DNA from: an uncultured Faecalibacterium sp.
Lineage (GTDB): Bacteria; Bacillota; Clostridia; Oscillospirales; Ruminococcaceae
Direction of reading: 5' to 3'
NCBI GenBank assembly: GCA_934525735.1
Contig: CAKSZM010000062.1
Coordinates: forward strand, 1-11,710
Length of the DNA: 11,710 nucleotides
The position numbers were made by a program, and so were the translations under genes. The first letter of the stretch is position 1, and the number at the start of each line of letters is the position of its first letter. The notes beneath the pieces were generated by a model. That model was given only the letters and a program-made list of their open reading frames with translations, searched no databases and was not told the DNA's origin. This document shows, in pieces, positions 1,472 to 10,362 of this stretch.

Positions 1472-1657
1472 TTACAGATTCTGCAGCTTTGCGCGCAGCT
1501 CATCCGAGAGGTTCTCGGTGTCCAGATTGGTCAGCACATACTGCAGCTGTTCCTGCATCTGGTACAGGTAGCCGCGCAGGGCGCGTGCGTCCTCCGGATC
1601 CATATTCTCGCTGAGCTTCGGCAGGCCGATCTTGTTGATCCCCATCACACTTGCCAT
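1472..1657 (-). CDS. Small conserved phage protein (61 aa)
   Basis: Starts at ATG 1657 with a good GGAGGAA site, overlapping the end of the 630-aa gene by 13 nt, which indicates translational coupling. It ends 16 nt before the 446-aa gene. The peptide has a short N-terminal part (MGINKIGLPKLSENMD) followed by a helical stretch LRGYLYQMQEQLQYVLTNLD (about 27-46) and an acidic-basic tail. The LYQMQEQLQYVLTNLDTEN pattern recalls the short coiled-coil segments at the ends of Firmicutes phage tail or neck proteins. A role as a structural linker or chaperone of the neck is guesswork. Existence as a gene is well supported by the ribosome-binding site and tight packing. Confidence 0.75.
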   Translation of the reverse strand: MASVMGINKIGLPKLSENMDPEDARALRGYLYQMQEQLQYVLTNLDTENLSDELRAKLQNL

Positions 1658-3537
1658 GATGCTTCCTCCTGTCCTGTGATGCCGCCCCGGGCGGCGGCCA
1701 TCGTCTTTGCCATGCTGCGCAGGGTGATCTGCCCGGTGCCCCGCAGGCGGAGCCGCAGCGTACCGTGCCGCCGGGGCACGAACGGCAGGTCGTAGCTGCG
1801 CCGATGCGATTGCGCCGTGATCCCGGCCACTGTCTCCCAAGGGCCTCCGTCATAACTGGCCGAGACTTCCACCGTGGTGCTGCATCCGGCGTCCAGACGC
1901 AGGGTCAGCCGGGAAAGATACCGGTCTTCTGCACCGTCCATCCCGATATCACCGGTGGTCAGTTCAAAATGGAGTTTCTCCTCCACGCCGTCGGTGCTCT
2001 GCCAGTCCGCTTCCCGGTCCGGGTCTGCCGCCCACAGCGCCTGTCCGTCCCAGAGATAGAGCTGCCCGCCGGTGCTGGCCATCTCGTAGGAACAGACATC
2101 CTCTTCGCTCCACAGACTGCGCTCCGTGTCGTACACCAGCAGCCTCGCCTGACTGCCGCCCTCCCGGGAGATGTGCAGATAATACCTGCCGTCCAGTGCG
2201 CCGCCCACGGCGCTCTGCACATGCGCCAGACGGCTGGCATCCAAGGCTCCGGACACCTTGACCGGAATACTTCCGTCCCACGCCATCACCCCGTCCGGTG
2301 AGAGATAATAGAGGGTTTCATTCAGCACGCACAGGCTGCGGGCTGCATTTTTGGCCACGCCCCGGCAGCGCAGGGAAGTGAGCTGAAAGTCCGAGGGCTT
2401 GGAGCCGTAGAGCTTGTGCAGGGTGTTCTCCTTAAAGAACAGCGCATAGCCCATGCAGGTCGCCGCCCCGGTAAATGCCCCGTCGCTGCCCACCGTGACC
2501 GCATAGCTGTCGGCCGCGATGCCCCGGTAGCTGAACCAGTTCGTGGGGTCGCCCAGCTTGCAGGCATAGATGACATTTTCCCTGCTGCTGCAGCCCCAGA
2601 CCCGGTTGTCGCACTCGGTCACGAAATCCAGATCCGGCACCCGGCGCTCCAGCTGCACCGTCCCGTTCACGGCAATGCTTTTGGTCTCTTTGCCGTCCAT
2701 GCTGGTCCACTGTGCGCTGTCCGTGCCCTGCACCAGTGTGCCGTAGAAAAAGTCTCCTTCCGGCGTCACACGCACCCGCAGGGCATTTTCCTGCACATCA
2801 TAGACCACAAGGTCACCGTCCAGTTCCTGCCACATTCCGGCCTGTTCTGCCGCCGTTCCCCGCACGGTCACAGTGTCCCATTGTGCAAACTGTTTTTCGG
2901 CTCCCGCCGCCGTGATACGGCAGTATTCCAGCGGCACCGCCGTCCAGTTTCCGGAGGCCGAACTGTACACTTCCAGCGTACCGGTGCAGCTCCACGGGTG
3001 CTTTTCGTCCTCGATCTTCAAAAAGATCTGGCCGTCCTCGGGCTGTTCCGGCTCCTCCCTGCCACAGCTGCCCGCCTCGTAGGTCTTGCCGGAAGCGTCG
3101 CAGGGCACGAACTGCACGCTCTGCCCCTCGGCCTGCCACACCGCACCCAGCGGCTTTACCGAGCCGTCGGCCGTGTCAAAGGACAGCTTGTCGGGGAAGA
3201 TCAGGATCTTTGTTCCAAGACCCACCAGAGACTTTCTGCCATCGGTCACAACGTCGGTACAGGTCACAGGTCGTTCGCCTGCATCGTCCGGGGTGTAGAG
3301 CAGGTCTTTTCCGCAGACGGTCAGCAGGCCATTCAGATGATACATCCCGTTCAGTCCGGTCAGCTCCCGCAGTTTCCGGCGGGGCTTGCGGGTGCTCAGC
3401 GCCGGGAAATCCCGGGCCGAAAAGTTCACGCCTGCGCTGTATTCCGCTTCCGAGCAGGAATACGTTTCGTTCAGCCCGCCGAACGCCCGCACAAGGCTGC
3501 GGCTGTTCGGCAGCTTTGTCCTGTTTGCCAGAACCAT
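1645..3537 (-). CDS. Putative tail nozzle/stopper protein, short-tail type (630 aa)
   Basis: Start ATG at 3537, chosen because TAAGGAGGGG lies 7-8 nt upstream; a longer reading frame runs to 3678 but would overlap the preceding gene without a site. The N-terminus (FGGLNETYSCSEAEYSAG, about 19-36, then FPALSTRKPRRKL) is a pattern I associate with podovirus-like tail-tube/nozzle proteins of Firmicutes phages. The middle (about 330-480) has repeated beta-blade-like units, e.g. DNRVWGCSSRENVIYACKLG then YALFFKENTLHKLYG and LYYLSPDGVMAWDG, suggesting a propeller as in P22 gp10 or T7 gp12-like proteins. A C-terminal beta-sandwich (about 520-615) ends LRLRLRGTGQITLRSMAKT. Placed directly after the adaptor, it would cap the portal-adaptor stack. 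Family assignment is by pattern and order; a receptor-binding function is less likely but not excluded. Confidence 0.75.
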   Translation of the reverse strand: MVLANRTKLPNSRSLVRAFGGLNETYSCSEAEYSAGVNFSARDFPALSTRKPRRKLRELTGLNGMYHLNGLLTVCGKDLLYTPDDAGERPVTCTDVVTDGRKSLVGLGTKILIFPDKLSFDTADGSVKPLGAVWQAEGQSVQFVPCDASGKTYEAGSCGREEPEQPEDGQIFLKIEDEKHPWSCTGTLEVYSSASGNWTAVPLEYCRITAAGAEKQFAQWDTVTVRGTAAEQAGMWQELDGDLVVYDVQENALRVRVTPEGDFFYGTLVQGTDSAQWTSMDGKETKSIAVNGTVQLERRVPDLDFVTECDNRVWGCSSRENVIYACKLGDPTNWFSYRGIAADSYAVTVGSDGAFTGAATCMGYALFFKENTLHKLYGSKPSDFQLTSLRCRGVAKNAARSLCVLNETLYYLSPDGVMAWDGSIPVKVSGALDASRLAHVQSAVGGALDGRYYLHISREGGSQARLLVYDTERSLWSEEDVCSYEMASTGGQLYLWDGQALWAADPDREADWQSTDGVEEKLHFELTTGDIGMDGAEDRYLSRLTLRLDAGCSTTVEVSASYDGGPWETVAGITAQSHRRSYDLPFVPRRHGTLRLRLRGTGQITLRSMAKTMAAARGGITGQEEASWQV

Positions 3538-3550
3538 CGTTCTCCCCTCC

Positions 3551-3934
3551 TTACCACTTCCACCGGCTCCCGTTTCGGGGCGGGTAGCTGCGCCGCAGCC
3601 ACGCCGCCAGATCCGCCACAAGGCTGTTGTACTGCGCCTGCTCCCCGGCGTACCGGTCGGTCTCTCCCAGTGCCGCATCAGTCATCGCGCACAGATAATG
3701 CGGATACAGCGCATCATAGGGGGCCGGCACCAGCAGAACATCCTCGTCCTGCAGGCCATCGTCCCACGCAAGATCCGCGCCCACATCATCGTAGGCGTCG
3801 GTGCTGCTGCTGCGGAACAGTCTCTCCCGCAGCATGGCATCGGCTTCTTTCAGCCACGCCTGCCGGGTCGCCAATGCAATGCGGCTGCCCGGGCGCAGCT
3901 CTTCGGCGCGCTCCAGCGCCTGTCCTGCCGTCAT
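3551..3934 (-). CDS. Putative head-tail adaptor (connector) protein (127 aa)
   Basis: Start ATG at 3934, with AAAAGGAGTG about 8 nt upstream; an in-frame upstream ATG at 3997 lies within the hairpin region and has no site. The protein is mostly alpha-helical: N-terminal helices (MTAGQALERAEELRPG, then WLKEADAMLRERLF), an acidic loop (about 47-65), and a C-terminal helix pair around DALYPHYLCAMTDAALGETD and YNSLVADLAAWLRRSYPP. Size, helical pattern and position between capsid and nozzle genes match gp4/gp6-type adaptors that bind the portal ring. The gene ends 13 nt before the nozzle start, so the two are probably cotranslated. Assignment rests on context and fold pattern rather than a diagnostic motif. 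Confidence 0.7.
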   Translation of the reverse strand: MTAGQALERAEELRPGSRIALATRQAWLKEADAMLRERLFRSSSTDAYDDVGADLAWDDGLQDEDVLLVPAPYDALYPHYLCAMTDAALGETDRYAGEQAQYNSLVADLAAWLRRSYPPRNGSRWKW

Positions 3935-3960
3935 AAACTTCACACTCCTTTTATCAGAAA

Positions 3961-3992
3961 AGCCCGGCCGGGCAGGTGCTCCCGGCCGGGCT
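3961..3992 (-). terminator. Strong hairpin between capsid and neck genes (attenuator/terminator)
   Basis: A perfect GC-rich 12-bp stem (AGCCCGGCCGGG, 3961-3972, with its complement 3981-3992) encloses an 8-nt loop. On the minus strand it is followed by TTTCTGAT, a weak U tract, so it may only partly terminate. It lies between the stop of the 70-aa gene and the ribosome-binding site of the adaptor gene. That is where a phage would lower expression of low-copy neck proteins relative to capsid protein. An RNA-processing or mRNA-stabilising role is an alternative. Confidence 0.65.
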
Positions 3993-4019
3993 TGCATTTA
4001 CCGGTTCTTCGTGTGCTGC

Positions 4020-4232
4020 TTACTGCGCCGCGTTCTCCGCCGCCGCGATGCGGGCAGCAGTCAGCTCGTCCTGCATCTGGCTGTGCTCCAGCACTTCGGC
4101 CACCTCGGGCGGCACTTCCACCTCCACACCGCGGCGGATCTTGTAATTCACGCCGTTGACGCTGACGAACAGGTCGCCCTTGTAGCGGCTGTTGTCCTTG
4201 AACAACCGGATGCGTACATTCTTTTCTGCCAT
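4020..4232 (-). CDS. Small capsid-associated protein of unknown function (70 aa)
   Basis: Start ATG at 4232, with AAAGGAA about 10 nt upstream. The first half looks like a compact beta domain: VRIRLFKDNSRYKGDLFVSV then NGVNYKIRRGVEVEVPPEVA (about 28-47). The second half is an Ala/Glu-rich helix (about 48-70). The NG-x-Y-x-I-x-RG-x-x-V-x-V-P pattern is one I recall in short proteins encoded next to the capsid gene in many Firmicutes phages. A decoration, head-completion or neck role is plausible but not established. It is separated from the capsid gene by a host-type repeat rather than being tightly coupled. Confidence 0.75.
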   Translation of the reverse strand: MAEKNVRIRLFKDNSRYKGDLFVSVNGVNYKIRRGVEVEVPPEVAEVLEHSQMQDELTAARIAAAENAAQ

Positions 4233-4256: not shown

Positions 4257-4319
4257 CTCTCCCTTTGGGAGAGTTGTCGAACCGCGCTGCCCCATTGGCG
4301 GACGGTGAGGCTGAGAGGG
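4257..4319 (+). repeat. Host-type interspersed palindromic repeat, copy 1
   Basis: On the plus strand the element opens with a perfect hairpin CTCTCCC-TTT-GGGAGAG (4257-4273) and closes with CTGAGAGGG (4311-4319). The 13-mer CCCTTTGGGAGAG and the 9-mer CTGAGAGGG recur in the same orientation at 8295-8339. It begins 4 nt past the capsid gene's TAA when read on the minus strand. Elements with these end motifs are, as I recall, scattered through Ruminococcaceae genomes; naming it a MITE- or REP-like element is inference. Confidence 0.65.
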
Positions 4320-4323
4320 CACT

Positions 4324-5322
4324 TTAGTTTGCCGCTGCGGTTGCAGAATAGCTGGAAGCGCTCTCAATGCGCACCATGTACTGCTCCACCAGACGTTCCG
4401 CCGCGCGCATGCCCTTCCAGCCAACAGAAGCGCGCTGGTTCAGCGGGTCGTCGCCGTAGCCCAGCTGCTTGACGATGTGTTCCAGACCGCCGCCTTCCAG
4501 CTCGGTGACACCGTAGGCGTGGGCACCCAGCACCAGCGTGCCGAACACCGCCAGCCCGGCGGGGCAGGTGGCATCCTTCCAGATCTTGGCCTCGCTGGTC
4601 TCGATGAAGCGGATATTGCCCAGCTTGCCGATCTCGCCGCGGAACATGGTCTCCGGGTCGGCGTACTTGTGCACCTCGATGAACTCCTTGCAGGTCTTGA
4701 GGTCGTAGGCCGCGTAAGGGTGAATGATGGCAATGTAGCTGTCGCCGATGGGGTCGGCGTTCATGGCGCCCAGCTGCGCCGCCGCCTGGAAGAACAGCTT
4801 CGGGGTCAGGGTGCAGCTCTTGTCCAGCGCCTTGCGGCTGGCCACGGCAGTCTCAGTGCCGTCCGCGGCGATTTTGGGCGCATAGATGACGTTGGTGCCG
4901 CCCGCCAGCACATCGCGGGTGATGCTGTCCATGGTGCGGCCTGCCTGGCTTGCCAGCACGCGGGTGGCCTGCACCACATTGTTGTCGATGGCGGTCATCT
5001 GCAGCACATCGGTCAGCGGGGTCCAGCCACCGTACTGGTGCAGGTCGCTGGTGATGGTGGTCACGTTCAGGGTCTGGCCGTCAGGAGTCACACCCTCGGT
5101 CAGGGGAGTGGATGCCTTGGGCAGACTGTCGTACTTGCGGAACTCGATGGTCTTGCCGCCGTTCTGGGGCACCGGGTAGTAATCCGCAAACTGGTCGTGC
5201 ACCAGACGCGGCTCGGCCTGGTCGATGAGGCGCTTCTCATAGAAGGTCTTCATCTCCTGCGACATGGTCGCAGTGGTGTTCAGGTTGTCAGCAAACATCT
5301 GAATGTCAAAGTTCTTGTTCAT
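4324..5322 (-). CDS. Major capsid protein, N4-gp56 family (332 aa)
   Basis: HK97-fold shell protein. Start ATG at 5322, with AAAGGAAA 7-8 nt upstream. I recognise the N4-gp56 family from the N-terminal run ending KTIEFRKYDSLPKASTPLTEGVTP, the LHQYGGWTPLTDVLQMTAID stretch (about 95-114), the RDVLAGGTNVIYAP segment, and the C-terminal half with YIAIIHPYAAYDLK and FIETSEAKIWK. Length fits the family. Residues 5-11 (FDIQMFA; IQMFA at 5290-5304) match the Prp-type cleavage motif found in L27 and in Firmicutes phage head proteins. The N-terminal ten residues are therefore probably removed between F10 and A11 by the protease encoded just upstream. The gene lies 26 nt after the protease-scaffold gene and is followed by a repeat. 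Confidence 0.93.
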   Translation of the reverse strand: MNKNFDIQMFADNLNTTATMSQEMKTFYEKRLIDQAEPRLVHDQFADYYPVPQNGGKTIEFRKYDSLPKASTPLTEGVTPDGQTLNVTTITSDLHQYGGWTPLTDVLQMTAIDNNVVQATRVLASQAGRTMDSITRDVLAGGTNVIYAPKIAADGTETAVASRKALDKSCTLTPKLFFQAAAQLGAMNADPIGDSYIAIIHPYAAYDLKTCKEFIEVHKYADPETMFRGEIGKLGNIRFIETSEAKIWKDATCPAGLAVFGTLVLGAHAYGVTELEGGGLEHIVKQLGYGDDPLNQRASVGWKGMRAAERLVEQYMVRIESASSYSATAAAN

Positions 5323-5348: not shown

Positions 5349-5930
5349 TCACAGTTCGATCTGTGCCCCATGGAGCACGCGGCGTTCCAGCGCTTCCCGC
5401 TGGGCGCGGGTCATGCCTGCCACATCCGGGCGGACGGTGGCCGCGCCGCCGGGGCGGATGCCGTTTTCCGTCGGGCGCGCAGCCCGCTGCCGGATGCGCT
5501 CCACCACGCCCTGTTCCACCGTCTGCGCAGCCGAACGCAGATTGTCGTCATAATGCGCCAGACGGTAGGCGTCCTGCACCCGCATCCCGGGCAGCTGCAT
5601 CAGGCGGCGCATCTCCGGGTTCTTCAGCTCGGCCTGCAGGCTGAAGTCAGGGTCACTGCGGCGCAGGGCCGCTTCCTCGGCCGCCCACCGGGTGTGCAGT
5701 CTCTGCACGGCGTTCCGGGCCAATGCGGGCAGCGGCGGCGGCACCGGGCGCGGTTCCGGTCTTTCCGGTGCCGGAGCCGGAATTTCTTCTTCCGGCTGGA
5801 CAGCCACAGGCGCAGCCGGAGCGGCCTGCACTTCGCTAGGCTTCATGGTGCCGGATGCCACAGCCTGCTGCGTCTGTGCGTGGCTCAGGGCCGGGGGAGT
5901 GGCTTCTCCCTCTGCAAAGAGCTGTAGCAT
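5349..5930 (-). CDS. Nested scaffold protein from internal start (193 aa, predicted)
   Basis: Inside the fusion gene, the in-frame ATG at 5930 (Met165) is preceded by GGGGAG (5936-5941) with 5-nt spacing, a usable ribosome-binding site. Its product would begin MLQLFAEGEATPP, which looks like an ordinary Firmicutes phage scaffold N-terminus carrying a Prp cleavage motif. Independent translation would supply scaffold in excess of protease, as in the lambda C/Nu3 arrangement. Direct evidence is only the site, the start codon and the family-like N-terminus. The alternative is that scaffold is released solely by proteolysis of the full-length protein. Confidence 0.45.
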   Translation of the reverse strand: MLQLFAEGEATPPALSHAQTQQAVASGTMKPSEVQAAPAAPVAVQPEEEIPAPAPERPEPRPVPPPLPALARNAVQRLHTRWAAEEAALRRSDPDFSLQAELKNPEMRRLMQLPGMRVQDAYRLAHYDDNLRSAAQTVEQGVVERIRQRAARPTENGIRPGGAATVRPDVAGMTRAQREALERRVLHGAQIEL

Positions 5931-6422
5931 AAAGGCTCCCCACGGGTTGCGGCTCCCAGCGTCCACTTCGTGCCTTGAGCGGCACTCGTGTTCTGCTGGC
6001 CGCTGCCCCAGCCTCGGCTCCCTGTTTCCGCCGCAGGCGGCGGTCGCCTCCGCTGCAAACAGCTGCAGGTCCATCATGCTCTGCTCGCCCCGGCGGCTCA
6101 CATCTGCAAAGCGGACATTCTCCGGGTAGCGCTCGGCCAGCAGCACAAAGCAGCTCTTGGCCAGTTCAAACGCGCCCTTCACCCACTCATCGCAAGGGGC
6201 ATCCACGCTCACGGCCACACGCGGGCCGTCCGGCTCGTCAAAGGCGTCGCTGCTGGCGTTTTCTTCTCCGGCCAGCAGATACACCAGCCCCTGCATCACG
6301 GTGCTGGCACCGGCGCACACGATGTCCTGCCCGGCAGGCGCATAGCCCGCATGGCCGGCGGCTTCCAGCCGGCAGCCGATGCCTGCCGGGGTGTCCATTT
6401 CGCTATAAATTACTTTCATCAT
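5349..6422 (-). CDS. Prp-type cysteine protease fused to capsid scaffold (357 aa)
   Basis: Start ATG at 6422 (AAGGAGG 7-8 nt upstream; a GTG at 6431 overlaps that site, and ATG 6419 is the next codon). Residues 1-105 match ribosomal-processing cysteine protease Prp: GHAGYA with catalytic His24, and DIVCAGASTVMQGL with catalytic Cys36, the same 12-residue spacing as host Prp. Then come MMDLQLFAAEAT (116-127) and MLQLFAEGEAT (165-175), both resembling the Prp target. Residues about 177-357 look like a scaffold: a Pro/Glu-rich linker, a helix with RRSDPDFSLQAELKNPEMRRL, AYRLAHYDDN, RPTENG and a basic C-terminal helix. The product would be both maturation protease and scaffold, self-cleaved into parts. 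Phages usually encode these separately or use host Prp. Residues 128-164 are compositionally odd (Arg-, His- and Cys-containing). Confidence 0.85.
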   Translation of the reverse strand: MMKVIYSEMDTPAGIGCRLEAAGHAGYAPAGQDIVCAGASTVMQGLVYLLAGEENASSDAFDEPDGPRVAVSVDAPCDEWVKGAFELAKSCFVLLAERYPENVRFADVSRRGEQSMMDLQLFAAEATAACGGNREPRLGQRPAEHECRSRHEVDAGSRNPWGAFMLQLFAEGEATPPALSHAQTQQAVASGTMKPSEVQAAPAAPVAVQPEEEIPAPAPERPEPRPVPPPLPALARNAVQRLHTRWAAEEAALRRSDPDFSLQAELKNPEMRRLMQLPGMRVQDAYRLAHYDDNLRSAAQTVEQGVVERIRQRAARPTENGIRPGGAATVRPDVAGMTRAQREALERRVLHGAQIEL

Positions 6423-6438: not shown

Positions 6439-8265
6439 TCAGTTCAAGTCCATGGCGCGGGCGGCAGCAGCCACCGGCAGGGCACTGCCCAGACCGGCCA
6501 GCTTTGTTCCGGCCTCTTTCCCGTCTGTCTGCGTGAACGCGCTGCTCACGCTGCGGGTCAGCCCGCCGGAATCCGGGTTCTGCCCCTGCATCTCAATGAC
6601 CGCCGCCATCCGCACCATCTGATCCTGCATCTGCGCCAGCTGCCGGGCAAGGGTGCCGTTCTGCCGCACCCGCTGGCGCACCTTCTCGATGCCCTCAAAA
6701 TCCATCATATCCAGTGCCGCAAGGGCTGCGTCGGCGTTCTGCGGGTTGAAGAATCCCAGCTGATAACATTCCTTCGCCGTCTCGTTCTGGGAAAGGCGGC
6801 TGAAGGTGCTCTTTTTTGCCGCGCTGACCACGATGTCAAAGATGGGTTCCCGGCTGCCCAGCTCCACCCCGCCCAGACTGCCGCCGGGCACGGCGCGCAG
6901 TGCTTCGGCCGAGAAAGGCACGAACTGGTTCCCGCCGTCTGCGCCCACGATGCGGAACACCCGCTGTTCGTCGTAGAACTGACGCATCAATTCGATGATG
7001 AGGTAGCACTGCTTTGCAAAGGCACGGTAGGCGCTCTTGAGCATATCCCGGCTCAGCTTGCTGCCGGCCTCCTGCAGGGCGGCAATGGCGCTGGCAGCCG
7101 TCACGCCGCCCGCGGTGCCGCCCTGGGTCATGTCCCGGTTGCCGCTGATCTCCTTCAGCTCTTCGATGCGGCTTTGGCGGTAGCTCAGGCTGTTGCCCTG
7201 CAGGCCGGCCGTCTGCAGCGGACGAAAGCTGTCGTCGTTCAGCCTGCCCGCAACATGCACGATATCCCGCGAAAAATCCGCCAGTTCTTCCTCGTTGACC
7301 CCTGCCGTGTCGCTGAGCACATACCGCTGTTTGGCCGCCAGCAGAACATTCTCGTCCATGGCGTGGTTCATCTTGTCGATGGCCGTCTGGCAGTCCTTCA
7401 TCACGTCGATGTAACCGAAGCCTGCCGGGCTGTCCTCCTCCACGAACAGTGCATCGAACACAAAGGGATATTGCCCGTGATCATACAGGCCGCGCTGTGC
7501 CAGTGCCGGGTCGTTCTGGCTGGCATACAGCACCACGCCGTTGCAGAACTTGCAGTAGTGCAGCACCATGCGTCCGTTTTCGTCCGGGCGCTTGTAGTAC
7601 CAGTCCACCACCACGCTTTTCGTGCTGGTATCCTGCCCTTCCTCGTGGATGTACCGGGGCACATCCAGCACACCGGCTGTGCGGCCTGCCAGCTGCGGAT
7701 ACTGCGCGATCAGCTGCGCCGTGTCTTCCAGACTCAGGCTGAAGAAATCAGGCGAAGCCTGGATATCCTCCACGCCCGGCTCCCAGTAGAGCATCAGCAG
7801 GTTCATGCTGCGCACGGCGATATCGCCCAGCCCGCCCCGCATCTGAGGATCCCAGAAGATGCCGGTCACTCCGGTGCCCTGCTTGAGTTTGCGCCACCAG
7901 CAGTCGCTGTACACCTGCTCATAATCCGCCTGCTCCAGCACCACCGGCAGTACGCTGGAAAGCGCCCTTGCCGTGTCCTCGTCGTCTGCCGCGCGGGGCA
8001 GGACGTTCGGTTCCGGGTAGTTGTCCATGGCGTCGGCATGCTTGTTGGCGATGCTGTTGAACAGCCACCCGCTGGAAGGCTGGCTCTTGCCGGGCATCAT
8101 AGGGTTGGAGTAATTTTTCCAGTGCCCCATGCGGAACCACAGTTCGTTGTCCACCAGGCGCTTGTCCAGCGCCGCTTTTCCGGCTTTGTACCGCTGCAGG
8201 GTCTGCATGGCCTCAGCCACCTGTGCTTCGCCCACCGGCAAAGCTTCGTTCTGAAAATCTTCCAT
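6439..8265 (-). CDS. Portal protein, P22-like (608 aa)
   Basis: Dodecameric ring protein at the capsid vertex, docking the terminase during packaging and the neck afterwards. Start ATG at 8265, with AAGGAGA 7 nt upstream; the stop lies 16 nt before the protease-scaffold start. Family signals: WLFNSIANKHADAMDNYPEP (about 67-86); KLKQGTGVTGIFWDP (about 126-140); the helical core GFGYIDVMKDCQTAIDKMNH (about 282-301); a Gly/Ala-rich stretch GGTAGGVTAASAIAALQEAG (about 382-401); and a C-terminal helix around QLAQMQDQMVRMAAVIEMQ. Length is a little shorter than P22 gp1, which carries a long C-terminal barrel that seems reduced here. A repeat separates it from the terminase gene. Confidence 0.9.
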   Translation of the reverse strand: MEDFQNEALPVGEAQVAEAMQTLQRYKAGKAALDKRLVDNELWFRMGHWKNYSNPMMPGKSQPSSGWLFNSIANKHADAMDNYPEPNVLPRAADDEDTARALSSVLPVVLEQADYEQVYSDCWWRKLKQGTGVTGIFWDPQMRGGLGDIAVRSMNLLMLYWEPGVEDIQASPDFFSLSLEDTAQLIAQYPQLAGRTAGVLDVPRYIHEEGQDTSTKSVVVDWYYKRPDENGRMVLHYCKFCNGVVLYASQNDPALAQRGLYDHGQYPFVFDALFVEEDSPAGFGYIDVMKDCQTAIDKMNHAMDENVLLAAKQRYVLSDTAGVNEEELADFSRDIVHVAGRLNDDSFRPLQTAGLQGNSLSYRQSRIEELKEISGNRDMTQGGTAGGVTAASAIAALQEAGSKLSRDMLKSAYRAFAKQCYLIIELMRQFYDEQRVFRIVGADGGNQFVPFSAEALRAVPGGSLGGVELGSREPIFDIVVSAAKKSTFSRLSQNETAKECYQLGFFNPQNADAALAALDMMDFEGIEKVRQRVRQNGTLARQLAQMQDQMVRMAAVIEMQGQNPDSGGLTRSVSSAFTQTDGKEAGTKLAGLGSALPVAAAARAMDLN

Positions 8266-8341: not shown

Positions 8342-9790
8342 TTAAACTCTGTAAAACTGTGCCCGTTTGTGCAGATCCAGCGGGTCGTCCGGCATGGGCG
8401 GGGCGGCGCAGCGTCCCGGCGGGCTGATGGGATTTTCCATCAGCACATAGCGGCATTCGTCGTAGATATGATCCTCCTGCCGGGTGTCGATATCCTCCAC
8501 ATTGCTCTCGTCGTACACCAGATTCGGAATGGTGCGGATAAAATGCTTGCAGGTATTGAACACCTGAAACATCGGCCTGCCCTCCGGGTCAAAGCTGAGC
8601 CGGTAGTGGAACTGCATCTTTCCGGCAAGGCGGGTGTGGTCGCCGGGCATCCAGTGCAGAAAATTCGGGCTGCGCTCCATCATGGCCGCAATGCTCTCGC
8701 CCCGGCTCTCATCGAAAATGGCCGGGTCGGCAATGCCGTGGATCACCCTGCCCCGCAGCATGGGATCGTTCTGCTCGACCTCCCGGATGCGCCTTGCCTG
8801 CTCCACCGGGTCGATGCGCAGCCCCTCGTTGGGGCGGCCGGTGCATCCGTACAGCTCCTTGATGCAGTAGAGCCTGCCTTCTTCGTCGGCGGCGTACCAC
8901 CCCACCGAAAACGGCTTGGAAAAACCAAAGTCGAACCCGCGGTAGATCTGCCAGTGCTTCGGGATGGCAAAGGGTGCGATGACATGGGTCCAGCGCTGAT
9001 CCTGATAGTGCGCCGGGTCGTTGCGCCACTCGGTGAACACCTGCCCCGAAAAGCTGTCCCAACTGCCGTAGAGCAGCGCCTGTTTTTCGGCTTCCGGCAG
9101 GCTGGCCAGACTGGCCAGATATCCGGGGTCGTTCTGCAGCAGCGCGGGGTTGTCGAAGATGCTGGACGGGATGAACACCCGCGCCCGCTGCAGTTTCTGT
9201 TCGGCGCCGTCGGGCAGCTTCACGGTATATTCCTCGGTGATGGGCGTGCCGGGCGGGGCGGGCGTGATGAACCGTGCCTTGACCCAGCCGTGGCCGATGC
9301 CGCCGGGGTTTGTGGTTGCACGCATGTATACCCGGGTGCCCGGGCCGGTGGGGCGGTTGCGGCTCATCATGTAGCTGTACTCTTCCCATTCAAAGTGGGT
9401 CAGCTCGTCAAAGCCGATAAAATCGTAGGCCTTGCCCTGATAATTGGTGCGATCCTTGGTGTACTGCATGGAACCGAACCAGATCTTTGCACCGCTTGGG
9501 AAGGTCCACACATGGGCAGTCGCGTTGTACTGCGCCCCGGGGAAGGCCCTGCGGTAGTACATCTGGCTCTTGTCCACCAGATCCGACAGCTGCGGGTAGG
9601 TCTTGCGCAGGATCAGCGCCCGGTAGTGCGGGATGTGCACCTGCCGCAGCGCTTCGATGATCAGCGCATCGCTCTTGCCGCCGCCCGCCGCGCCGCCATA
9701 CAGCGCTTCCGGCTCCGGCCGCCGCATGAACTCTGCCTGCCGCGGCTGCGGCCTCCAGACCACCGCTGCTCTGCTCTCAAGTTTGTTCAT
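8342..9790 (-). CDS. terL: Terminase large subunit (TerL, 482 aa)
   Basis: DNA-packaging motor: N-terminal ATPase plus C-terminal RNase H-like headful/cos nuclease. Start ATG at 9790, with GGAGG 7 nt upstream and a 4-nt ATGA overlap with the preceding gene. ATPase motifs: Walker A GGAAGGGKS (32-40), Walker B FIGFDE (124-129, Glu129 catalytic), and the TTNPGG coupling motif (159-164). Nuclease acidic residues: Asp287 in RGFDFGFSKP, Asp355 in GIADPAIFDE, and Asp444 in DHIYDECRY, matching the usual three-Asp pattern. Length is normal for the family and all catalytic residues are present, so the protein should be active. Confidence 0.96.
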   Translation of the reverse strand: MNKLESRAAVVWRPQPRQAEFMRRPEPEALYGGAAGGGKSDALIIEALRQVHIPHYRALILRKTYPQLSDLVDKSQMYYRRAFPGAQYNATAHVWTFPSGAKIWFGSMQYTKDRTNYQGKAYDFIGFDELTHFEWEEYSYMMSRNRPTGPGTRVYMRATTNPGGIGHGWVKARFITPAPPGTPITEEYTVKLPDGAEQKLQRARVFIPSSIFDNPALLQNDPGYLASLASLPEAEKQALLYGSWDSFSGQVFTEWRNDPAHYQDQRWTHVIAPFAIPKHWQIYRGFDFGFSKPFSVGWYAADEEGRLYCIKELYGCTGRPNEGLRIDPVEQARRIREVEQNDPMLRGRVIHGIADPAIFDESRGESIAAMMERSPNFLHWMPGDHTRLAGKMQFHYRLSFDPEGRPMFQVFNTCKHFIRTIPNLVYDESNVEDIDTRQEDHIYDECRYVLMENPISPPGRCAAPPMPDDPLDLHKRAQFYRV

Positions 9791-10068
9791 GATTCTTCCT
9801 CCACTTCCGGCAGCAGCACCACGCCGCACCCGGTTCCCTCGGTGTCCGTGCCCTGCTCGTTCAGGGTCTTGACCACACCGGCCAGATCCTTGAGCACAGC
9901 CGTGGCTTCCTTGAGTCCCTTCATGGTGCCGGGGTCCGGTTCGCCGCCCTTCCGCGCCGCCTTCTGGCGGTCGTTCAGGCCGCGGACCTGCTGCGCCAGC
10001 AAAGTGCTGAGCACATCCGCTGCACGGCTCAGGCTGGCCAGCCCTCTGGCCTGTTTTGTCTGCCCCAT
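9787..10068 (-). CDS. Putative terminase small subunit by position (93 aa)
   Basis: First gene of the operon, coupled to terL by a 4-nt overlap. ATG 10068 is the only reasonable start, but the nearest ribosome-binding site, AAAGGAG, is about 14 nt upstream, an unusually long spacing that could limit expression. The protein is helical and basic in its first half (RGLASLSRAADVLSTLLAQQ, then NDRQKAARKGG). A second helix follows (MKGLKEATAVLKDLAGVVKTL), then an acidic tail ending GVVLLPEVEEES. I see no clear helix-turn-helix, so DNA recognition is not demonstrated. Proteins of this look commonly precede terL in Clostridia prophages; TerS is the best guess, from position. Confidence 0.65.
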   Translation of the reverse strand: MGQTKQARGLASLSRAADVLSTLLAQQVRGLNDRQKAARKGGEPDPGTMKGLKEATAVLKDLAGVVKTLNEQGTDTEGTGCGVVLLPEVEEES

Positions 10069-10362
10069 CGTGGTCGGGTCAACTCCTTTCTGTTTTTGTT
10101 CCGCTGGGGTATGGCAAAAGGATACCACCCTTTTTTCTCTCCCGACAGGGCGTACTTTTGCAGGCCCACAGAGTATTTTTCAGTATTTATTATTCTCGGC
10201 GTATAAATCTAACTAATTTTTTCTTTTGCTATATCGTCATTTTTAAAAAAGTTTTCTTTTTCTCCCCAAAAAAATGAGCCAGTAATTCCCGGGCAGCCTG
10301 CCATTTTCCGGAAGATTTTTAAAAGTCATACTCATTTTATAAATTTGGACAAAAAATGAAAA

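Follow-up and report, generated by a model that had tools for sequence, protein, structure and literature searches.

In bacteriophage lambda (C/Nu3) and in the herpesvirus protease-scaffold proteins, the protease and the scaffold are carried in one polypeptide chain, and the proteases in question belong to families unrelated to Prp. In gut phages a Prp gene is found followed by a scaffold gene whose product starts with an LQxFA-type stretch, the two being separate genes rather than one chain. The locus described here resembles phage 80α in its protease family and in the LQ-F|A motif present in both scaffold and capsid (PMC5744158). The described element that the cluster fits is FpGTA I of Faecalibacterium, characterized as a podovirus-like gene transfer agent and encoded in a 10.5 kb, ten-ORF operon with the order TerS-TerL-portal-head scaffolding-capsid (Borodovich et al., Nat Commun 2026, PMC12946183). 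Its particles measure 40 nm and package ∼9 kb of DNA, the element was present in all twelve Faecalibacterium genomes examined in that report, and its describers present it as the first gene transfer agent-like element of the human gut microbiome (PMC12946183). The main text names head scaffolding, and no description of a fusion, of cut sites, or of an insertion was found in it; the words protease, peptidase and Prp, as well as any beginning with cleav-, are absent from the main text (PMC12946183). As outlined below, one gene of this cluster is likely to encode the maturation protease and the scaffold of FpGTA I in a single chain.

The window, that is, the whole 11,710-nucleotide stretch of DNA analyzed, contains on its minus strand, where the other genes and sites given below are also located, an open reading frame of 357 amino acids (positions 5349 to 6422) that starts with an ATG at position 6422 preceded by a clear Shine-Dalgarno sequence. 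The N-terminal part of the protein, delineated from residue 1 to residue 105 (6108 to 6422), is a Prp cysteine protease domain. The PF04327 profile matches residues 17 to 103 with an E-value of 3e-10 and a score of 40.6 bits (cut-off 27), and a search of the PDB with a profile of 13 relatives returned 2g0i (E 2e-10) and Staphylococcus aureus Prp, 4peo (E 1e-6), together with streptococcal proteins. The AlphaFold model of the fusion, which is confident mainly for residues ∼1 to 110 and about 231 to 310, was compared with known structures using Foldseek, and 14 chains were matched at E ≤ 0.001 (entries 2g0i, 2g0j, 7kld, 7jvs, 4peo, 2idl, and 1s12). These correspond to S. aureus Prp in its substrate-peptide and covalent-ligand forms, SMU.848, 2idl from Streptococcus pneumoniae, and TM1457; SMU.848 and 2idl also match the 13-relative profile, and TM1457 (1S12) is named TmPrp in PMC9405229. 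The predicted catalytic residues are His 24 (codon 6351 to 6353, within GHAGYA) and Cys 36 (codon 6315 to 6317, within DIVCAGAS), neither of which varies among the 27 aligned fusions. The Prp domain with this His/Cys pair had been proposed in the first-pass annotation, and it is confirmed here by family, PDB sequence, predicted fold, and invariance alike.

The active-site histidine and cysteine are kept in all 240 homologues listed (236 by exact pattern and four by reading), one of the listings being the best 120 of 4,237 matches and hence favoring the query's own type. The dN/dS ratio of the Prp part lies below 1 in each of the 228 pairs with dS values between 0.05 and 1.0 (median 0.33, maximum 0.61), and the Prp part is thus under purifying selection. 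A 491-residue variant, P0085, displays a large internal duplication of the protease end and the scaffold start. The C-terminal part of the chain in the window is the scaffold part (5352 to 5912), where residues 236 to 357 match phrog_13908 with an E-value of 3e-19; this is a phage family with no assigned function, and it sits where a scaffold is expected, between the genes for portal and capsid.

Upstream of the fusion lie a putative small terminase of 113 residues (9787 to 10128), designated on the basis of position and conservation and having no family match, the large terminase (8342 to 9829; PF03237, E 8e-16), and a P22-like portal protein (6439 to 8265; PF16510, E 3.5e-31). Downstream are the major capsid protein (4324 to 5322; phrog_1357, E 8e-86; PF25209) and then five more genes. 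These encode conserved cluster proteins of 70 residues (p70, 4020 to 4232; phrog_15239) and 148 residues (p148, 3551 to 3997; phrog_12105), a phrog_511 "internal virion protein" (p677, 1645 to 3678) whose true start is probably ∼45 codons further downstream, a small ORF recognizable in 16 of 30 main loci (1504 to 1659), and a final protein of 462 residues (p462, 115 to 1503). The 70-residue protein shows 94 to 99% identity across the nine nearest loci (L039 to L047). The intergenic stretch between the capsid and 70-residue genes (4260 to 4325) contains CTCTCCCAAAGGGAGAGCC, which resembles another short palindromic repeat.

The fusion or scaffold protein was found in 30 of 31 genomes of the genus (that of L001, F. 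prausnitzii). In the 30 main loci the detectable genes follow a constant order, three apparent exceptions being due to a terL frame extended upstream. All 30 have portal, fusion, and capsid; p70, p148, and p677 are present in 28 each, terL in 27, and terS and p462 in 26 each, with several of the missing genes attributable to contig ends. Host sequence on the right flank, with tRNA-His and tRNA-Arg, is common to 13 loci and another is common to a set of six; on the left, flanks are common within groups of 14, five (the window included), and four, and the remaining loci share theirs with at most one other. The right side is therefore the same while the left side varies by group, and a chain of shared flanks joins most species. 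Of the 20 splits in a tree built from terL, portal, and MCP of 23 genomes, 14 are shared with rpoB. When only splits with support above 0.9 are considered, 12 of 15 in the GTA tree recur in that of rpoB, and conversely 12 of 14 recur in the GTA tree. Distances between the GTA genes correlate with those for rpoB (r = 0.77, 0.88, and 0.84; permutation maximum 0.55, n = 2,000). This agreement of trees and distances points to vertical inheritance of the cluster, and the shared flanks are in line with it.

In make-up, size, and spread across Faecalibacterium, the cluster fits FpGTA I rather than an ordinary, unnamed prophage. Particles that package host DNA were published for ATCC 27766, a strain other than that of the window (PMC12946183). 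Of the three named loci found, L002 and L003 come from two strains of that report, ATCC 27768 and APC923/51-1. The accessions given for the capsid and portal of ATCC 27766, RCH50849.1 and RCH50851.1 (PMC12946183), would leave between them space for one protein, as expected for the fusion. Short IMG/VR contigs with FpGTA I-type fusions (L216 to L223) are filed as viral genomes and may be pieces of chromosome carrying the GTA.

A PF04327 search of the 31 Faecalibacterium genomes revealed one Prp in 28, two in G001 and G016, and none in G012, the sole genome with neither a fusion match nor any Prp, which may be incomplete. All matches, including the second copies in G001 and G016, sit at head clusters, and no Prp was found elsewhere in the 31 genomes, a result that rests on many genomes, taken without completeness figures, rather than on one proven complete. 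The same profile applied to 14 control genomes gave matches in Bacillus subtilis, Thermotoga maritima, and Lactococcus lactis, and none in the Escherichia coli genome. Ribosomal protein L27 was found in 27 of the 31 genomes, four having no match, and at each of the 24 loci readable among these 27 it begins with MAHKKG and has no extension, a short form for which trimming is unnecessary. At the L27 loci searched there was no Prp pattern beside the gene. The hallmarks of a housekeeping Prp, namely a gene next to rpmA combined with a long L27, were accordingly not encountered at these loci. Species with a long L27 all have Prp, the inverse not being true (PMC9405229). Given that no Prp was found outside the clusters and that L27 is short where readable, the only Prp candidate is the particle's own enzyme. 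The self-contained system put forward in the first-pass annotation thus stands on firmer ground than the sequence alone could provide, since the search of the genus turned up no further Prp.

These data bear directly on whether the cuts are made by a protease of the host, the fused Prp being a relic or a mere targeting module. There is a precedent in phage 80α, the capsid and scaffold of which are cut by host Prp (PMC5744158). Whereas 80α relies on the enzyme of its host, the FpGTA cluster encodes its own in one chain with the scaffold, and no further Prp was found in the host genus. Apart from the genome search and the short L27, the invariant active-site residues and dN/dS values below 1 also argue against a relic, and we consider such an arrangement highly improbable; as the main reading, host proteolysis is rejected on the strength of the short L27 where readable and the lack of any match outside head clusters in the 31 genomes.

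The motifs at which cleavage would occur lie where the first-pass annotation had placed them. The first LQLFA, comprising residues 119 to 123 (6054 to 6068), is where protease and scaffold are predicted to part. The pattern M-x-[DE]-LQ[LM]F[AG] is present at this position in 27 of 27 aligned fusions, with Leu 119, Gln 120, and Phe 122 invariant. The second LQLFA, residues 166 to 170 (5913 to 5927), arrives with a 141-bp insertion discussed below. Near the N-terminus of the capsid protein there is an IQMFA (5290 to 5304), cleavage of which is predicted to remove 10 residues, and an equivalent LQxFA or IQxFA is found in 32 of 32 related loci (29 by pattern and three read by eye as LQRFA). When each protein was shuffled 20,000 times, at least one such motif appeared in 0.075% of cases and two in the fusion never, so that their occurrence by chance is unlikely. 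Within the cluster such sites were found solely in the scaffold and capsid proteins; the two other pattern matches are in other reading frames. One listed relative from a second fusion family, P0234, has no cut site.

Because Prp is the only one of its kind found, its active-site residues are invariant, and its dN/dS is below 1, the scaffold and capsid proteins of the cluster, which bear the motifs, are its most likely substrates. We infer the following course of events. The scaffold would carry the Prp domain, with His 24 and Cys 36, into the assembling procapsid, where Prp would cut between Phe and Ala in the LQLFA behind its own domain and thereby yield free protease and scaffold. It would also cut the capsid protein behind IQMF, with the loss of ten residues. 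In the lineage of the window the inserted peptide should be removed as well, since the repeat-derived insertion brings another LQLFA with it. Proteolysis at LQ-F|A by the fused domain, its timing, and co-incorporation into the particle are all predictions. In phage 80α an alteration of the F|A site in capsid or scaffold leaves the phage viable, and so cleavage may be dispensable here too (PMC5744158).

Just ahead of the first site lies Met 116 (codon 6075 to 6077), an ATG in 27 of 27 aligned Faecalibacterium fusions with a variable codon following it. It could serve as an alternative start, such that most of the scaffold would be made from it, as for lambda C/Nu3, with the fusion a minor, protease-bearing product. 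The pairing with the anti-Shine-Dalgarno sequence 5' of Met 116, however, is only moderately above that of other codons (mean rank fraction 0.21) and falls below the median codon in four of 27. In addition, neither of the two codons that precede [DG]LQ is ATG in the fused loci L228, L235, L236, L237, L245, and L268, and proteins of the P0170 type have Val-Val there. Predominant synthesis from an internal start appears less likely than not, and it would in any event be compatible with a maturation protease and scaffold encoded in one chain. Met 116 may be a relic of a former start codon.

At the main locus, Prp and scaffold share one frame in 25 of 30 genomes (one, L039, being frameshifted) and are separate genes in the other five (L066 to L070). 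Four of these five split-type scaffolds have LQLFG or LQQFA near their start, that of G025 having LHRFG instead. In 114 of 197 genomes of the family there is a match to the Prp profile (E ≤ 1e-4); those listed lie in ORFs of at most 151 codons, except for four from Faecalibacterium genomes. A scan of viral contigs with the fusion protein alone gave no relative and an alignment-based scan did. Among the best 80 of its 135 loci, 20 are fused and 60 separate, where fused denotes over 170 codons of open frame, counted from where the match begins, and contig ends may blur the call. An LQxFA-type stretch lies shortly 3' of Prp in 37 of the 60 separate loci, near-duplicates included. A second family of fusions, about 450 residues in length, includes L064 and L065 as well as L226, L227, and L232, which are on viral contigs of 38 to 70 kb. 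L064 (G016) and L065 (G001) belong to second, diverged head clusters with this longer Prp-scaffold fusion, and the protein of L065 is identical to that of L227, on a 39 kb IMG/VR contig. More distant fused forms are L235/L245, L236/L237, L265, and L268. In view of the many separate Prp-then-scaffold loci and the several fused lineages, the fusion is a recurrent derived form of a common order and not unique to FpGTA. No publication on a Prp-scaffold fusion protein was seen among those listed in the literature searches. The fusion is not one of a kind: fused forms also occur in the second, phage-borne family of Faecalibacterium genomes and on several gut viral contigs besides.

Comparison with relatives having an empty site shows that the window carries an in-frame insertion of 141 bp, or 47 codons (5913 to 6053), that ends in the second LQLFA. 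The relatives have MMDLQLFAEGEA at this place, and the window reads MMDLQLFA, then 47 residues ending in LQLFA, then EGEA. The insertion has no counterpart in the other 26 fusions of the alignment, close relatives included; L039, which does bear it, was left out of that alignment because of its frameshift. In L039 (G029) a C run just 3' of the insertion is one base shorter than in L041 and the frame ends at ∼178 residues, through either an assembly error or a real loss. Of the three-part product suggested in the first-pass annotation, the predicted release at site 1 stands, the site being present in 27 of 27 fusions. The proposed spacer of residues 123 to 169 is the insertion, absent from most related species examined, so that in its basic form the chain would yield a protease and a scaffold, parted at a single release site.

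Most of the insertion, within a stretch from 5942 to 6057, matches a repeat dispersed in Faecalibacterium genomes. At E ≤ 0.01 there are 26 matches in G001, 12 in G002, and 13 in G003, and matches at E ≤ 1e-10 occur in 15 of the 31 genomes, the counts at that threshold being lower bounds given that at most 27 candidates were scored per genome. Rfam gave no match, either for the window (E ≤ 1) or for six copy-bearing loci (gathering score), RNA folding of the repeat gave an indecisive z of -2.4, and no publication on it was apparent among the matches listed. As many as 25 of 35 dispersed copies lie under some open frame of at least 150 codons, open frames being uninformative on coding state here. 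In the mapped cluster ORFs of L039 to L070, the cut site is the sole coding position at which the repeat was found, the copies in L004 to L006 and L225 being outside that classification. L052 has one more copy, between terL and portal. A frameshift as the source of the spacer, whose other frames are open, is ruled out by the empty-site relatives and the dispersed repeat.

The insertion in the window is 99.3% and 100% identical to those in L039 and L007, whereas the flanks are only 78 to 86% identical, and the best repeat copy among the fetched loci, L039's own aside, is 90% identical. A near-identical insertion in diverged flanks, with the best other copy at 90%, indicates that the insertion probably spread recently between these GTA loci. 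Related events are seen in other lineages. L218 has a diverged insertion at the same place, which its relatives L047 and L049 lack. On both sides this insertion is bordered by a perfect direct repeat of 16 bases that takes in the variant site of the locus, LQMFA; in the window the two copies of the cut site match in 14 of 16 bases. In P0151 and P0163, from the second family, a further insertion lies at the same place with LQLFA before and LQFFA after it. The decayed locus L297 (G030) has a similar arrangement with a stop codon in the first site, and P0002 carries the insertion twice in tandem.

The recurrence of related insertions at this position in at least two further lineages suggests trimming of the inserted peptide. 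Read most simply, an insertion that duplicates the cut site is tolerated since its peptide can be excised; a preference for this target, or recombination by way of the repeated site, may replace or supplement that explanation. Short dispersed repeats inserted in frame into coding sequence are familiar as the Rickettsia palindromic elements. The Faecalibacterium insertions differ in being placed at a protease site that is repeated at the far end. Taken together, we tentatively propose, as a possibility and less than an even bet, a repeat-derived cassette lying between two protease sites that would be translated and then excised by the fused protease, that would have entered at least three lineages, and that would have spread recently between GTA loci, perhaps by recombination via the repeated site. 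Its position between two copies of the protein's own protease site would be what allows such a cassette to survive within a conserved coding region.

The insertion might instead have a function of its own, for example in setting scaffold length or head size, and not be trimmed. Its near identity between lineages would fit such a role, as would its presence in 119 of the best 120 homologues listed of 4,237 (116 by pattern and three by reading), but this listing favors the query's own type. The 26 fusions in which the insertion is missing, close relatives among them, and its match to a dispersed repeat count against a dedicated function, which we regard as quite unlikely.

The trimming of the inserted peptide, if true, would amount to removal of an insertion at the protein level without an intein, and protease sites would be possible safe havens for inserted DNA. 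For the genus as a whole, the protease seems to have outlived its housekeeping counterpart: L27 is short where readable, no ribosomal Prp was found, and Prp is kept in the operon of the particle. The analysis puts a name to the likely maturation enzyme of FpGTA, and Cys 36 becomes the target with which to ask if head maturation matters for DNA delivery.
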